Below, piece by piece: positions 1-24,149 of a stretch of 64,000 bases of DNA. Below the pieces are notes generated by a model. It did not search any database and was not told where the DNA came from. It saw nothing but the letters and a program-made list of their open reading frames with translations. Both the position numbers and the translations under genes were made by a program. The stretch is from Martelella mediterranea. GTDB lineage: Bacteria > Pseudomonadota > Alphaproteobacteria > Rhizobiales > Rhizobiaceae. Location of the stretch: assembly GCA_003001975.1 (NCBI GenBank), contig PVUG01000001.1, positions 310,001 through 374,000 of the forward strand. The letters run 5' to 3'. Every line of letters begins with the position of its first letter. The first letter of the stretch is position 1.

Positions 1-779
1 GCATCGCCATGCTGCCGACGACGGTGTCGAATGCGGCCTCCCCGCGCCCGCTCCAGGCCGTCCGGATCGACCTCAAGCTGCTGTATCGCAATTCGCCCGT
101 TGCCTTTTTCGGGGTGCTGCTGACCGGCATTGCCAATGGTGCCTTCGGCACGCTGGTGGCCGTCTTTGCCGCCCGCGCCGGGCTTCCCGACAATCAGGTC
201 GCCTTTCTGGTAACCGGCGCCATTCTGGCCGGCGCGCTTGCCCAGGTGCCCGTCGGACGGCTTTCCGACCGGATGGACCGGCGCTATGTGATTGCGGGCC
301 TTGCGGCAATCGCGGCAGCGGCGGCGATCACCGTCGTCATCTTCAAGCCTGGCAGCACCACGCTGATCGTCCTGATCGCCACCTACGGCGCCACGGCCAA
401 TGTGCTTTATCCGATCACGGCCTCGCATGCGAATGACTTCGCCCGACCGGAGGATTACGTCAAGATTGCAAGCGGCCTTCTGTTCCTGTTCGGCATCGGC
501 ACCATCATCGGCCCCACCGTCGGCGGCCCCGTGATGTCGAACTTCGGCCCCTATGCGCTGTTCATCGTCACCGCCACAGCGCATGTCCTGATCCTTGCCT
601 ATGCCATCGTCCGTTCCCGCATTCGCGCCGCTGTACCGGTTACCAACCGCGAGGCCTTCACGGCCATGCCGGACGCGGCAACGCCGGTTTCCACCACCGA
701 GGGGGTTGCGCTGAAGAACCCGAACCGCGAAACCTCCGTTTACGACGAAGAAGAAAGGAGCGAAGATCATGCCGCTTGA
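1..779 (+). CDS. MFS transporter, C-terminal part (5' end outside window)
   Basis: Inner-membrane transporter of the major facilitator superfamily; substrate not identifiable. The frame is open to the left edge, and about 250 residues are visible against roughly 400-440 for a whole MFS protein, so this is the second half. Several hydrophobic helices are visible. The loop GRLSDRMDRRYVI matches MFS motif A (GxLaDrxGRR) as repeated in the second six-helix bundle. A hydrophilic tail of about 50 residues rich in Ala, Thr and Glu follows the last helix. The ATG near base 9 is probably internal. The stop overlaps the start of the next gene by 11 bases, suggesting translational coupling. Family call is firm, substrate unknown. 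Confidence 0.85.
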   Translation, partial: IAMLPTTVSNAASPRPLQAVRIDLKLLYRNSPVAFFGVLLTGIANGAFGTLVAVFAARAGLPDNQVAFLVTGAILAGALAQVPVGRLSDRMDRRYVIAGLAAIAAAAAITVVIFKPGSTTLIVLIATYGATANVLYPITASHANDFARPEDYVKIASGLLFLFGIGTIIGPTVGGPVMSNFGPYALFIVTATAHVLILAYAIVRSRIRAAVPVTNREAFTAMPDAATPVSTTEGVALKNPNRETSVYDEEERSEDHAA

Positions 780-969
780 TGACGACAGCGACGACAAGAA
801 ACCTGCAAGGAACCAGTACATCATTGGCGCCGATCTGGAAGAACATTCGGTCGAGGCGCTGAACGGTTTCGTCGAGGAGCTGCGCCGCGAGATCGAACGT
901 CTCGAGGCTGCCATCGGCAGGAAGGGTAGCGAGCGCGAAAAGGCCGAAAGTTTCTTCAAGAAGAAATAG
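769..969 (+). CDS. DUF1192 family small protein
   Basis: A 66-residue acidic N-terminus/basic C-terminus protein matching the DUF1192 family of small alphaproteobacterial proteins: MPLDDDSDDKKP start, a central segment about VEALNGFVEELRREIERLEAAI predicted to be helical or coiled-coil, and a lysine-rich end (FFKKK). No membrane helix or cysteine. It begins inside the end of the transporter gene, with AAGGAG-like bases (gaaaggagcgaag) placed for its ATG. Function is not known to me. Real on the basis of the ribosome-binding site, overlap, length and composition. Confidence 0.85.
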   Translation: MPLDDDSDDKKPARNQYIIGADLEEHSVEALNGFVEELRREIERLEAAIGRKGSEREKAESFFKKK

Positions 970-991
970 TCCGCTCCGCTGCAACCGGCCT

Positions 992-1007
992 TTAACGCGA
1001 TATTAAC
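992..1007 (+). promoter_or_regulatory. CtrA-type box TTAA-N7-TTAAC upstream of RNA candidate
   Basis: The bases read TTAA, seven bases, TTAAC, an exact match to the full CtrA consensus of alphaproteobacteria. It lies directly before the candidate small RNA and about 245 bases before rcdA. CtrA is the cell-cycle response regulator whose turnover RcdA assists, which makes chance less likely. Binding is inferred from sequence only. Confidence 0.55.
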
Positions 1008-1009
1008 CT

Positions 1010-1112
1010 TTCCAAGTTGTTATAGGTCATCCGCTTGGCGGAGTCGGGATCTCTGTCTTTATTCCGATCATCACCCTTTGACTTACGGGCCGCTTTTGCG
1101 GCTCTTTTTTTT
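1010..1112 (+). ncRNA. Candidate small RNA ending in an intrinsic terminator
   Basis: The gap between the DUF1192 gene and rcdA holds structure no protein gene explains. A small hairpin (tccgc-ttg-gcgga) is followed by about 40 bases of CU-rich unpaired sequence with 'ctctgtctttattccgatca' and 'catcaccctttg', then a 7-bp stem (gggccgc-tttt-gcggctc) with eight T residues. This layout resembles the alpha-r8/MmgR (Rfam suhB) RNAs of rhizobia as I remember them. The 5' end is a guess; a TATAGG at 1021 could be a -10 element, but no good -35 is seen. It could alternatively be only the terminator and 3' UTR of the upstream genes. Confidence 0.45.
1087..1112 (+). terminator. Intrinsic terminator
   Basis: Seven-base-pair stem with one G-T pair, a tttt loop and a run of eight T. 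It ends either the MFS-DUF1192 transcript or the candidate RNA, and it isolates rcdA from upstream readthrough. Confidence 0.85.
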
Positions 1113-1139
1113 GCACAACCCGGCATTCGGCAGTGGGTA

Positions 1140-1154
1140 TTAACCCTTCGTTAA
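1140..1154 (+). promoter_or_regulatory. Second CtrA-type box TTAA-N7-TTAA before rcdA
   Basis: TTAA-CCCTTCG-TTAA with exact seven-base spacing, 98 bases before the rcdA start codon and downstream of the terminator, so well placed to act on the rcdA promoter. The last base of the consensus (C) is G here. Direct sequence match; binding is inferred. Confidence 0.55.
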
Positions 1155-1252
1155 GAAACGGGTTGCGGAAATGCGTTACAGGTATATTTGTTGTCAACGT
1201 TGTTGAAGACTTGCCGCACCAAGCGTATCGCGGCAATCGGCGTAGCAAGAGT

Positions 1253-1768
1253 ATGCAAATGACCAGTACCGGGGCACATCCGATCAGTTTTGCGGGACGG
1301 GCCGCCAACTCACCGCAGTTCGATGCCCTTTATGCCGAAGGCATGACGCTTGTCGAGGAGACAGCCGCCTATCTGGACGGTCCCGGCCGGGCTGCCTCGA
1401 AACTGCTCAGCGGCAGAGCGGCCGCGCTTTACTCGGCGGAATCCATCCGGCTCACCACGCGCCTGATGCAACTGGCATCGTGGCTGTTGCTGCAGCGGTC
1501 CCTCAATTCCGGCGAGATGAGCCGTGAGCAGGTGATCCAGGAGCGCAACAAGCTGCGTCTGGGCGGCGGCGGAGATGAAGAGGGCCTTTCGGCCTGGCGG
1601 GAACTGCCGCCGGGTTTCCGCGATCTGGCAGACCATGCCACACGGCTTGAAACCCGCATTCGCAAACTCGATGAAAGCCTGATGCGCGGCCACGTTCAGC
1701 CGGAACCGGCCAACAACCAGGTCATCGCCCAGATCGATCTGCTGCAGACCGCCTTCGCAAGACGCTAA
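1253..1768 (+). CDS. rcdA: RcdA / DUF1465 regulator of CtrA degradation
   Basis: About 171 residues of the DUF1465 family, whose Caulobacter member RcdA is an adaptor helping ClpXP remove CtrA. The protein is mostly helical, with a conserved early segment FDALYAEGMTLVEETAAYLDG and a mid-part ESIRLTTRLMQLASWLLLQ; the loop KLRLGGGGDEEGLSAW is flexible and glycine-rich. The ATG at 1253 was chosen because the family similarity begins shortly after; a second ATG follows two codons later. The reading frame also extends upstream, but that part overlaps the CtrA-like box and looks non-coding. Monocistronic: terminator before, long gap after. Presence of CtrA-like boxes suggests feedback between CtrA and its own degradation. 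Confidence 0.85.
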   Translation: MQMTSTGAHPISFAGRAANSPQFDALYAEGMTLVEETAAYLDGPGRAASKLLSGRAAALYSAESIRLTTRLMQLASWLLLQRSLNSGEMSREQVIQERNKLRLGGGGDEEGLSAWRELPPGFRDLADHATRLETRIRKLDESLMRGHVQPEPANNQVIAQIDLLQTAFARR

Positions 1769-2260: not shown

Positions 2261-2456
2261 AACTCTCGTTCCTGCAAGCTTGTTTAAACCCTGGCCGCCA
2301 TTGCGCCCACCGGGGCTATTGAATAAACAAAGCCGTGAGACCCCAAAAAAAGCCACGGCTGTCGATTAGGTTGCGGTCGCTATACAGGAACGTGAGCCGA
2401 ATAACAAGAGCCGCCGGATGCAATATCCGGCCTCGGCGAAAGTGAAGGAAATACCC

Positions 2457-4241
2457 GTGAGCAGAAATGCTGAAACACGTGGTGGCAGAGCAAAAGAGCT
2501 TCGGCCGCTGACTGCGATTTTACCCTATATCACCGCCTATCGCGGCCTTGTGGCCGGCGCCCTCACCTTCCTTCTGATTGCCGCTTTCGTAACGCTCACC
2601 CTGCCCGTTGCCGTGCGCCGGGTGATTGACCACGGCTTTTCGACAGACGATGCCGAACTGATCAACAACTATTTTCTTGTGCTTGGGCTGATGGCGCTGG
2701 CGCTCGGCATGGCCAGCGCACTGCGTTATTTCTTCGTGATGATTCTCGGCGAACGGGTTGTCGCCGACCTGCGGCGTGATGTTTTTGCCCATGTCGTGCA
2801 GCTGTCGCCCGCCTTCTTCGATGTCAATCAGTCAGGCGAGATCGTCTCGCGGCTGACGGCCGACACGGTGCAGATCAAGTCGGCCTTCGGCGCAAGCGCT
2901 TCGGTTGCGCTGCGCAATCTGATCATGGGCATCGGCGCGCTGATCATGATGATCTACACCTCGCCGCGCCTTTCGGTGCTGGTGATTGCCGCAATCCCGC
3001 TGGTGGTGCTGCCGCTGATCGCCGCCGGTCGTCAGGTGCGCACGCGCTCTCGCGCCGCGCAGGATCAACTGGCCGATGCGACCGCCTTTGCCGGTGAGGC
3101 CATCGGCGCAACCCGCACCCTGCAGGCCTTTACCGCCGAGGGCATGGCCTCAAACCGCTATGCACGCGGCGTGGAAAACGCCTTCGCCGCCGCCCGTTCG
3201 GCGCTGAAGGCGCGCGCGGCGCTGACGGCCGTGGCAATCTCCACGGTGTTCTGTTCGATCACCGCAATCCTGTGGTTCGGCGCCCAATCCGTGCTGTCCG
3301 ACACGATGACCGGCGGCACGCTCGGCCAGTTCCTGATCTACTCGGTTCTGGCAGCCGGCGCCCTTGGCCAGCTCTCGGAAGTCTGGGGCGAACTCTCGCT
3401 TGCCGCCGGAGCCGCCGAACGGCTGAGCGAACTGCTGCTGGAGCCGTCCTCGATCACGACGCCTGCAACCCCGGTGGCCCTGCCCGCGCCGCGCGGCGCG
3501 CTTGAGGCAGATCATGTCTGTTTCCGCTATCCCACAGGCGGCGCCAAAGCCGGCGCCCTGAACGGGCTGTCATTATCCGTTTCGGCCGGAGAGACGGTTG
3601 CCGTCGTCGGCCCGTCGGGGGCGGGAAAGAGCACGCTGTTTTCGCTTCTGTTGCGGTTTTACGACCCCGATGAAGGGGCGATCCGGCTTGATGGCGTCGA
3701 TCTGCGCGAAGCCGACCCTGCGGCGATCAGGGCCCGGTTTGCGCTGGTGCCGCAGGATGTCGCGATCTTTGCCGCCAGCATTCACGACAATATCGCGCTC
3801 GGCCAGCCCGATGCATCACGCGAAGATGTGCGCGCCGCCGCCATTGCCGCCCAGGCCGACGGGTTCATCGAAAAGCTCGAAAACGGCTATGACACGATGG
3901 CGGGCGAACGCGGCATCACCCTGTCCGGCGGTCAGCGCCAGCGCATCGCCATCGCCCGGGCCGTGCTGCGCGATGCGCCCGTCCTGTTGCTCGACGAGGC
4001 GACATCGGCGCTCGATGCCGAAAGCGAGACGCTGGTGCAGGCCGCGCTGGGCGGGCTGATGAAGGGCCGCACAACGCTGGTGATCGCCCACAGGCTGGCC
4101 ACCGTGCTGTCGGCCGACCGCATTCTGGTGATGGATGAGGGCCGCATCGTCGAAGAAGGCACGCATGAAACACTGGTGGCCCGCAACGGGCTTTATGCCC
4201 GGCTTGCGCGCCTGCAGTTCAACACCGAGGAAACCGCCTGA
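2457..4241 (+). CDS. ABC exporter, fused permease-ATPase (ABCB type)
   Basis: Half-transporter of the lipid/drug exporter class (MsbA/LmrA-like); works as a homodimer in the inner membrane, cargo unknown. The first ~330 residues hold six membrane helices; the ATPase domain follows with Walker A GPSGAGKST, a Q-loop near VPQDVAIF, signature LSGGQRQR, Walker B VLLLDEATSALD and switch His in IAHRLAT, all intact. Length about 594 residues, normal for the class. I prefer the GTG at 2457 because AAGGA lies seven bases before it; an ATG 39 bases upstream in the same frame has no good ribosome-binding site. Stands alone, ending three bases from the convergent EamA gene. Confidence 0.9.
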   Translation: MSRNAETRGGRAKELRPLTAILPYITAYRGLVAGALTFLLIAAFVTLTLPVAVRRVIDHGFSTDDAELINNYFLVLGLMALALGMASALRYFFVMILGERVVADLRRDVFAHVVQLSPAFFDVNQSGEIVSRLTADTVQIKSAFGASASVALRNLIMGIGALIMMIYTSPRLSVLVIAAIPLVVLPLIAAGRQVRTRSRAAQDQLADATAFAGEAIGATRTLQAFTAEGMASNRYARGVENAFAAARSALKARAALTAVAISTVFCSITAILWFGAQSVLSDTMTGGTLGQFLIYSVLAAGALGQLSEVWGELSLAAGAAERLSELLLEPSSITTPATPVALPAPRGALEADHVCFRYPTGGAKAGALNGLSLSVSAGETVAVVGPSGAGKSTLFSLLLRFYDPDEGAIRLDGVDLREADPAAIRARFALVPQDVAIFAASIHDNIALGQPDASREDVRAAAIAAQADGFIEKLENGYDTMAGERGITLSGGQRQRIAIARAVLRDAPVLLLDEATSALDAESETLVQAALGGLMKGRTTLVIAHRLATVLSADRILVMDEGRIVEEGTHETLVARNGLYARLARLQFNTEETA

Positions 4242-4244
4242 GGA

Positions 4245-5138
4245 TCAACCCTCAGGCTTGCGGCCCGTGGGCATGAAGGTTGCAGCAAAGATCAGTGCGA
4301 TGCCGGCCCACACGATCGGTTGCGGCCATTCGTCGAAAACCACCAGCCCCATCATCACGGCCAGCGGCAGAGCCATGTGCAGGGCTGGCGTGAGCACCAT
4401 CGCATCGGCCATCGAAAACGCCTTCAGCATGCAGAAATTGCTGGTATTGACCAGCAGCGCCGACACGCACAAAAGCCCCAGATCAGCAAACCCGATCGGC
4501 GACCGGAAGAACAGCAGTGCCGGAGCGGCAGTCATGCTCGCCATCAGCACATACATCCAGAACAATGCCGGCACGAAAGCCTCGTTCATCGCCAGCATCT
4601 TCAAAACGATGTTCTTGGTGGCAAGCGCCAGCGCCGCTGCAACCGCCACAAGCCCCGCCACCTGAAACGCCTCGCTGCCCGGCCTGAGGATCAGGAGAGC
4701 ACCGAACAGCCCAAGGGCAACCGCCAGCCAGCGATGCCAAGTCGCCTTTTCCTTCAGCAGCAGGATCGCCAGCGGAATGACAAAAAATGTCTCGAGCTGA
4801 AACAGCGAGACGGCAATCGCGAATGGCAGCAGCGACAGCGAGGTGAAGATCAGAAAACTGACAACCACGCCCACCCCCGCGCGGATCGCCAGAAGACGCG
4901 GCGAACGCAGCCGGAAACCGGCAGAGCCTTTCATGGCGGCAACCGGCAGCACCATCATCGCAGCCAGGCTGTTCTGCACGAAAATCAGCATGACCGGCGC
5001 ATGGCGGGCCGTCAGCACCTTGGTCAGCGTATCGATACAGCTGAAGGCGGCAACGCCGGCAATCATCAGAAAAATCGCAGCAAGTCGGCGACCGGGCCGC
5101 CAACGCACGCCCCGCATAGGCAGGACGAAGGTCATCAT
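4245..5138 (-). CDS. DMT superfamily EamA-type transporter
   Basis: A 297-residue inner-membrane protein with about ten hydrophobic helices arranged as two EamA repeats, as in drug/metabolite exporters; substrate unknown. Repeat features include AILLLKEKATWHRWLAVALGLFG in the first half and GLVVFDEWPQPIVWAGIALIF in the second, each with the acidic-tryptophan turn usual before the last helix of a repeat. Two start codons sit side by side (5138 and 5135); CAGGAG upstream fits the second slightly better. Convergent with the ABC exporter. The 223 bases upstream contain two small hairpins (5213-5230, 5259-5275) and no gene. Confidence 0.88.
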   Translation of the reverse strand: MMTFVLPMRGVRWRPGRRLAAIFLMIAGVAAFSCIDTLTKVLTARHAPVMLIFVQNSLAAMMVLPVAAMKGSAGFRLRSPRLLAIRAGVGVVVSFLIFTSLSLLPFAIAVSLFQLETFFVIPLAILLLKEKATWHRWLAVALGLFGALLILRPGSEAFQVAGLVAVAAALALATKNIVLKMLAMNEAFVPALFWMYVLMASMTAAPALLFFRSPIGFADLGLLCVSALLVNTSNFCMLKAFSMADAMVLTPALHMALPLAVMMGLVVFDEWPQPIVWAGIALIFAATFMPTGRKPEG

Positions 5139-5361
5139 CTACTCCTGAACAAGCATCTGTTCGTGTCGGGATGCTTCCTGGAGGGGCCCTCGTCCGCTTG
5201 TCAGGAAGAACAGCGCTTTACAAAAAGCGCGGCGGTTGGGCAGGCATGCCGTACCACCCTTGCGGAGACCGCAAGATAGAAAAGAGCGCAGCCAAAGGCA
5301 AGTCCGGACGGACATGTCCGGCCAATGCCGCAGGCAAACACGGTTTCGGTTTTCCGAAACC

Positions 5362-24022: not shown

Positions 24023-24043
24023 CTGATATAACAACGCCATCAA

Positions 24044-24125
24044 GAGCGACGGGGGCGTCCGCTGCAGCGGGCTGAGAAGCACCCTTGGAACCTGATCCGG
24101 ATCATACCGGCGGAGGGAGTCACTC
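24044..24125 (+). promoter_or_regulatory. TPP riboswitch (THI element)
   Basis: Contains the conserved CTGAGA (24072-24077), then ACCCTTGGAACCTGATC, GGATCATACC and GGAGGGA in the proper order. The closing helix P1 pairs gagcgac (24044-24050) with gtcactc (24119-24125) with one mismatch. Thiamine pyrophosphate binding would lower expression of the thi genes that follow. Confidence 0.93.
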
Positions 24126-24149
24126 GGGCCTTCCGTTGTTCTGGTCCGT

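Follow-up and report, generated by a model that had tools for sequence, protein, structure and literature searches.

The stretch upstream of rcdA in Martelella mediterranea carries two sequences that resemble CtrA boxes and, between them, a segment that ends like a terminated transcript, and this raises the question of what CtrA might control at this place. RcdA helps ClpXP to degrade CtrA, and in the preliminary description of this DNA it was proposed that CtrA drives rcdA and may also control a small RNA, possibly of the suhB/alpha-r8 family. The window, i.e. the whole stretch of 64,000 nucleotides that was analyzed, contains here, in this order, genes for an MFS transporter, a DUF1192 protein (769 to 969, plus strand; Pfam PF06698, E 2.4e-14), RcdA (DUF1465; plus strand, 1253 or 1259 to 1768; Pfam PF07323, E 3.8e-49), ribosomal protein L31 (rpmE; 2039 to 2260, on the opposite, minus strand; Pfam PF01197) and an ABC transporter. 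The intergenic gap in question extends from the stop of the DUF1192 gene at 969 to the start of rcdA at 1253 or 1259. Among the matches listed, the closest named relative of the RcdA encoded in the window is that of Martelella lutilitoris with 88% identity.

Both boxes are on the plus strand and were found where the preliminary description had placed them, box 1 (TTAACGCGATATTAAC) at 992 to 1007 and box 2 (TTAACCCTTCGTTAA) at 1140 to 1154. They are the only two TTAA-N7-TTAA sites of the 64 kb window, for which shuffling gives a mean of 0.08 sites and two or more sites in 1 of 100 shuffles, and box 1 is its sole TTAA-N7-TTAAC, with 0.03 expected. Genome-wide, the 16-mer pattern TTAA-N7-TTAAC occurs 7 times on the forward and 6 times on the reverse strand compared with 5 and 4 times for the reversed control; as this is no clear enrichment, the pairing, the position and the conservation of the boxes carry more weight than the motif alone. 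Box 1 occupies -37 to -22 relative to the predicted start of the RNA, replacing a -35 element, and is followed by a provisional -10-like TTATAG at 1020 to 1025 (plus strand), read from the base frequencies of 104 distinct promoters; the AT-rich -10-like element of other genomes lies 2-3 nt further upstream than the TTATAG of the window. Box 2 lies in the putative rcdA promoter, and 8 nt past it there is a -35-like TTGCGG at 1163 to 1168 (plus strand).

Between the boxes, a small RNA of 84 nt is predicted at 1029 to 1112 on the plus strand from its fold, from a model of the RNA only, from a sub-threshold match to the Rfam family BjrC1505 and from a purine at the start. The segment folds into three hairpins with -27.5 kcal/mol (z -3.14), which was equalled by 0 of 200 shuffles. 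Hairpin 1 (1030-1042) and hairpin 2 (1043-1068) are followed by a single-stranded, C/U-rich linker (1069-1086) and by a terminator-like hairpin (1087-1104) with eight T at 1105-1112; two terminator-like sites were found in 501 bases, where 0.9 are expected. The likely start is a purine in 101 of the 104 distinct promoters and corresponds to position 1029 of the window, so that from the RNA segment proposed before, 1010-1112, the terminator end is retained and the start moves from 1010 to near 1029. Folds of 110 distinct RNAs showed exactly three hairpins in 94, four in 12 and two in 4 cases, and the median z was -5.4 relative to mononucleotide shuffles, a value that is partly due to the terminator. 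Hairpin 1 contains one base pair in which both bases are replaced in 12 of 45 sequences. Hairpin 2 differs strongly in sequence between groups and keeps its hairpin form in the single-sequence folds that were printed; the RNAalifold consensus of the whole alignment is limited to hairpins 1 and 3, as MAFFT fails to align hairpin 2 across groups. By eye, a GAGTC was noticed at 1040-1044, a GANTC (CcrM-type) site within the RNA gene.

With the curated thresholds of Rfam, no match was obtained at this gap. In a permissive search, BjrC1505 (RF02356) aligned over its full length with 39.7 bits (E 4.2e-6), which is below the gathering score of 50, and therefore the window RNA is a diverged homologue only and not a member of BjrC1505 by the rule of Rfam. 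It matches the hairpins and the 3' terminator of the family in fold and full-length alignment, and the location upstream of rcdA, which lies outside the Rfam definition, is shared as well, the window RNA being one of the 118 of 130 matches found next to rcdA. It differs from BjrC1505 in its linker, where the CCUCCCUGUU found in most members is replaced by AUCACCCUUUGAC. Like suhB (RF00519), also known as MmgR or alpha-r8, the RNA presents a CU-rich linker and then a G+C-rich terminator, and the suhB model aligned over its full length to 1054-1119 with 29.1 bits (E 4.4e-4). This score does not reach the gathering score of 41 and is lower than that of BjrC1505, and three loci elsewhere in this genome pass the suhB cut-off with 61.2, 45.6 and 44.0 bits, so the window RNA is another gene. 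The suhB/alpha-r8 identity put forward in the preliminary description was thus rejected, its probability being minimal in our judgment, and the RNA is best read as a diverged BjrC1505 homologue. The three suhB/alpha-r8 loci are at C1:428095-428174 and C1:428292-428365, a tandem with about 120 nt between the copies, and at C8:123636-123706 of genome G000, and a TPP riboswitch was found at 24041-24135 of the window (66.1 bits). BjrC1505 reportedly goes back to Madhugiri 2012 and is said to have been seen in Bradyrhizobium, with a level that falls in nodules. The open-licence full texts contained no mention of RF02356 and, in the portions available, no stated function for BjrC1505.

The element proved to be conserved to a much greater degree than could be told from the sequence alone when it was first described. 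Among 150 Hyphomicrobiales genomes, BjrC1505 gave a match in 126, above the cut-off in 107, and no match was found in 14 control genomes; DUF1465 was detected in 136 of the same 150 genomes and, among the 14 controls, only in Caulobacter. Of 130 BjrC1505 matches, 118, one in each of 118 genomes, are immediate upstream neighbors of rcdA and share its strand, with 153-1224 nt (median 220) between the RNA and the DUF1465 domain; of the 52 families sampled, 43 by hand count have such an rcdA-adjacent RNA. In 15 genomes, rcdA is present without an Rfam BjrC1505 match. Across related genomes, both boxes, the hairpin-terminated segment and their coupling to rcdA are widely conserved, and the absence of both boxes in relatives, which was to speak against the element, was not encountered. 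Second BjrC1505-like matches were seen at L073, L074, L075 and L077, in genomes G133, G059, G053 and G085.

Of the 109 loci picked with the Rfam model, 107 could be used, the other two being too short upstream, and in 99 of these 107 box 1 has 7 or more of the 8 half-site bases, compared with 6.3% of shuffles; this count is biased because the BjrC1505 model itself contains the box. Positions 8-23 of the model align to 992-1007, i.e. the Rfam consensus carries a box-like stretch, which suggests that its first ~40 positions are promoter DNA and not RNA. A promoter-free model of the RNA only was built from 45 sequences and applied to loci found via the RcdA protein, the best 80 of at least 584 in a first set and 30 in a second set. 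This model matched 79 of 80 and 29 of 30 loci, respectively (L023 had no match, and L188, with only 123 nt upstream, was excluded), 19 of the 29 second-set loci, of 108 in total, being training sequences of the model. The window RNA, itself a training sequence, was matched at 1027-1113 with 50.3 bits, the second-best match in this genome having an E of 0.8. Box 1 with at least 7 of 8 bases was found at 74 of 79 first-set and 25 of 29 second-set loci, that is at 99 of 108 rcdA loci, and it was exact at 51 and 18 loci (69 of 108); these loci are not independent, since they are related and two genomes were counted in both sets (L166 = L002, L167 = L009). Mononucleotide shuffles, used for all box controls, reached 7 of 8 bases in 5.7% (first set) and 2.1% (second set). 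In 97 of the 99 cases box 1 begins 35-38 nt before the start of the model, and for the 79 first-set loci 130 exact boxes were counted in 27.2 kb of this zone versus none in 200.7 kb around it. When the 104 distinct promoters were compared, the two half sites, the AT-rich -10-like element and the start purine stood out.

The RNA-only model also matched 5 of 8 fetched genomes that have rcdA and lack an Rfam match, with 28 to 51 bits, and in 3 of these five a box with at least 7 of 8 bases was present at other distances. Of 190 alphaproteobacterial genomes, 21 were matched by this model, and at least 2 of the 21 are Hyphomicrobiales. At 11 such loci, one of them from Hyphomicrobiales, a box with at least 7 of 8 bases lies within 60 nt upstream in 11 of 11 cases, at varying distance and with no shuffle control, and an RcdA match follows downstream in 6 of the 11.

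Box 2 is exact in 105 of the 108 rcdA loci, compared with 0.5% of shuffles, and in 103 of 108 a -35-like TTGC stands exactly 8 nt past it. The RNA without a DUF1465 match was seen in 5 of the 150 genomes, which represent three families and have 6 RNA loci in total. Box 1 is retained at 5 of these loci; at the sixth, L076, 4 of 8 bases are found at the expected place, and by eye a 7-of-8 box lies closer in and hairpin 1 is seemingly lost. The 12 non-adjacent BjrC1505 matches were reduced to 11 for the box test, as L077 had no match by the RNA-only model. Five of the 11 do not belong to rcdA-less genomes but are second copies of the RNA or lie on a different contig from rcdA; box 1 is kept in 4 of these and is lacking at the second copy L073, with 4 of 8 half-site bases at the expected place. 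A box with at least 7 of 8 bases within 400 nt past the RNA was present at none of the 11 loci. Neighbors were viewed at 4 of the 6 rcdA-less loci. L069 and L070 have a gene for ribosomal protein L31 past the RNA (Pfam), with an MFS gene before the RNA in L069 and an ABC transporter beyond in L070, and an L31-like gene past the RNA was read by eye from the translations of L068 and L072, and therefore these loci lack an rcdA between the RNA and rpmE while box 1 stayed with the RNA. The absence of rcdA at these four loci raises the question of CtrA proteolysis there. As the loci without rcdA retain box 1 at 5 of 6 and box 2 at none, box 1 accompanies the RNA rather than rcdA, and box 2 goes with rcdA. 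The earlier proposal is thereby sharpened to one in which, judged from sequence, box 1 would belong to the RNA and box 2 to rcdA.

Published data on CtrA were compared with this division, as far as the available excerpts of the cited papers extend. A CtrA motif at rcdA had been predicted earlier (PMC2877005, PMC3616915), and for agrobacterial rcdA several start sites and a predicted CtrA site are reported (PMC10469942). CtrA directly activates rcdA in Caulobacter (PMC4433202, PMC4287350), and in Hyphomonas rcdA is not CtrA-regulated according to the excerpt (PMC7200025). In S. meliloti, ChIP-seq located CtrA at the rcdA promoter region, and the expression of rcdA showed no significant change on CtrA depletion (PMC4433202, in the part available). 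From the claim that CtrA drives rcdA, the presence of CtrA at the promoter region therefore stands for S. meliloti and the response of the gene does not, and both observations fit the assignment of box 1 to the RNA and box 2 to rcdA. Exact copies of both boxes are present in S. meliloti Ak57, where the RNA-only model matches with 63.6 bits over 104 nt and Rfam BjrC1505 gave no match to this RNA at an E threshold of 0.01. Since the window RNA is below the cut-off and that of Ak57 is unmatched, the Rhizobiaceae RNAs are tied to BjrC1505 by place, fold and the RNA-only model. The Ak57 sequence CP090106.1 (L290-L292; 3.7 Mb), labelled plasmid pSymB, contains rpmE, gap, pgk and gltB and looks chromosomal.

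The S. meliloti counterpart of the window RNA is probably SmelC671/Sm84, a plus-strand, terminator-ended RNA of 100 nt located between 6S and mmgR and conserved in Rhizobiales with microsynteny, according to the excerpts available (PMC2873474, PMC3927594, PMC7143759); it was discovered by deep sequencing and appears in a nodule zone II list (PMC2873474, PMC7143759). Strand and terminator agree with those of the window-type RNA, and its 100 nt compare with the 104 nt spanned by the RNA-only model in Ak57. The reported distance between SmelC671 and 6S is 14,331 nt (1021), compared with 13,003 nt for the RNA in Ak57 and 12,575 nt in a near relative. These distances would also suit an RNA encoded between rpmE and the ABC gene; in L290 from 2300 to 5300, however, a strong terminator on the plus strand occurs only once, and it belongs to the RNA. 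An sRNA whose promoter has a predicted CtrA site is also known from Caulobacter crescentus, where the level of CcnA is lower when CtrA is impaired (PMC8959179). As with CcnA, which is tied to the CtrA circuit, a consensus CtrA box is found at the promoter of the window RNA, namely box 1 at 992-1007, at a conserved place. CcnA differs in its location, the origin of replication, and in its targets, the ctrA and gcrA mRNAs, whereas the window RNA is located beside rcdA and gave no pairing signal with ctrA; in the excerpt available, the authors saw no clear S. meliloti homologue of CcnA (PMC8959179). A published link of a BjrC1505-type RNA to CtrA or rcdA was not found in the portions of open-licence full texts that were searched, and as far as these searches show, the RNA family is known and its link to CtrA is new.

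Taken together, we consider it likely that the locus encodes a CtrA-activated, trans-acting, terminator-ended sRNA with its own promoter, beside an independently promoted rcdA. The gap would then hold two transcription units, a small-RNA gene of ~84 nt followed by rcdA. Because the CtrA box stands where a -35 element would be, CtrA, most likely in its phosphorylated form, is predicted to bind box 1 and to activate transcription of the RNA in the strain of the window. The promoter of rcdA would consist of box 2, a spacing of 8 nt and the TTGC-type -35 element, all between the terminator and the gene. Via Hfq and its linker, the RNA would most likely act in trans on mRNAs and may constitute a post-transcriptional arm of the CtrA regulon. 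The segment could also be imagined as a terminated 5' leader of rcdA, with occasional read-through from box 1 and hairpins that function as an attenuator, and its orientation and position directly upstream of rcdA at 118 of 130 matches would agree with this, as would the several start sites at agrobacterial rcdA (PMC10469942, excerpt). However, the persistence of the RNA at 6 loci in 5 genomes without rcdA, with box 1 at 5 of the loci, and the conserved promoter that rcdA has of its own past the terminator make such a leader unlikely.

Even less probable appears a negative feedback of CtrA and RcdA in which both boxes serve rcdA and the hairpin segment is incidental. This would be in line with the direct activation of rcdA by CtrA in Caulobacter (PMC4433202, PMC4287350, excerpts) and with a box 2 that is nearly invariant before rcdA, but it is difficult to reconcile with the unresponsive rcdA of CtrA-depleted S. 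meliloti (PMC4433202, excerpt), with a fold conserved as three hairpins in 94 of 110 RNAs and with an RNA and a box 1 that outlive rcdA. That box 1 is used by another TTAA-N7-TTAA regulator or by plain RNA polymerase instead of CtrA is quite improbable: the half sites resemble promoter elements in being AT-rich and the motif lacks clear genome-wide enrichment, yet the 7-nt spacing of the TTAA sites is conserved and ChIP-seq places CtrA in this region in S. meliloti (PMC4433202, excerpt). The preferred reading, a CtrA-activated sRNA beside an independently promoted rcdA, ties an Rfam sRNA family to the CtrA cell-cycle circuit and offers a testable explanation for the puzzle of CtrA binding without a response of rcdA in S. 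meliloti; if it is true, the action of CtrA at rcdA in rhizobia and their relatives needs to be measured separately for the RNA and for the gene. More tentatively, and with a chance that we would place just short of even, CtrA at the "rcdA promoter" might mainly drive the sRNA across Hyphomicrobiales, so that the CtrA circuit would have an RNA arm throughout the order. This would explain why rcdA of S. meliloti is bound and nevertheless unresponsive, and the RNA, kept where rcdA is lost, would then be the conserved CtrA output of the locus.

Candidate targets of the RNA were explored by pairing. Pairing with ctrA starts gave a mean z of -0.33 over 24 genomes (G040, without linker, was dropped) and pairing with rcdA starts a mean z of -0.16 over 17 genomes, neither of which is a supporting signal. 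When a 46-nt segment of the RNA was ranked in its own genome against 27 ORFs of the window (part of them unverified genes), two alternative rcdA starts and ctrA, ctrA was 7th of 30 starts. In 10 chosen genomes, the pattern ACAGGGAGG-N(3-9)-ATG had more sites than the reversed control, as ribosome-binding sites predict. Comparison of ACAGGGAGG sites at 30 loci (28 usable, two being the same site) yielded as cross-genus ORF matches only one weak pair, L317/L330, with 26% identity, and for this reason no target is claimed. At the ctrA starts (L259-L289), a GGGGA ribosome-binding stretch was counted by eye just upstream in 25 of 30 placed starts (a further one, of G020, was misplaced), an unusual G-run that could in principle be addressed by a CCC-bearing RNA.
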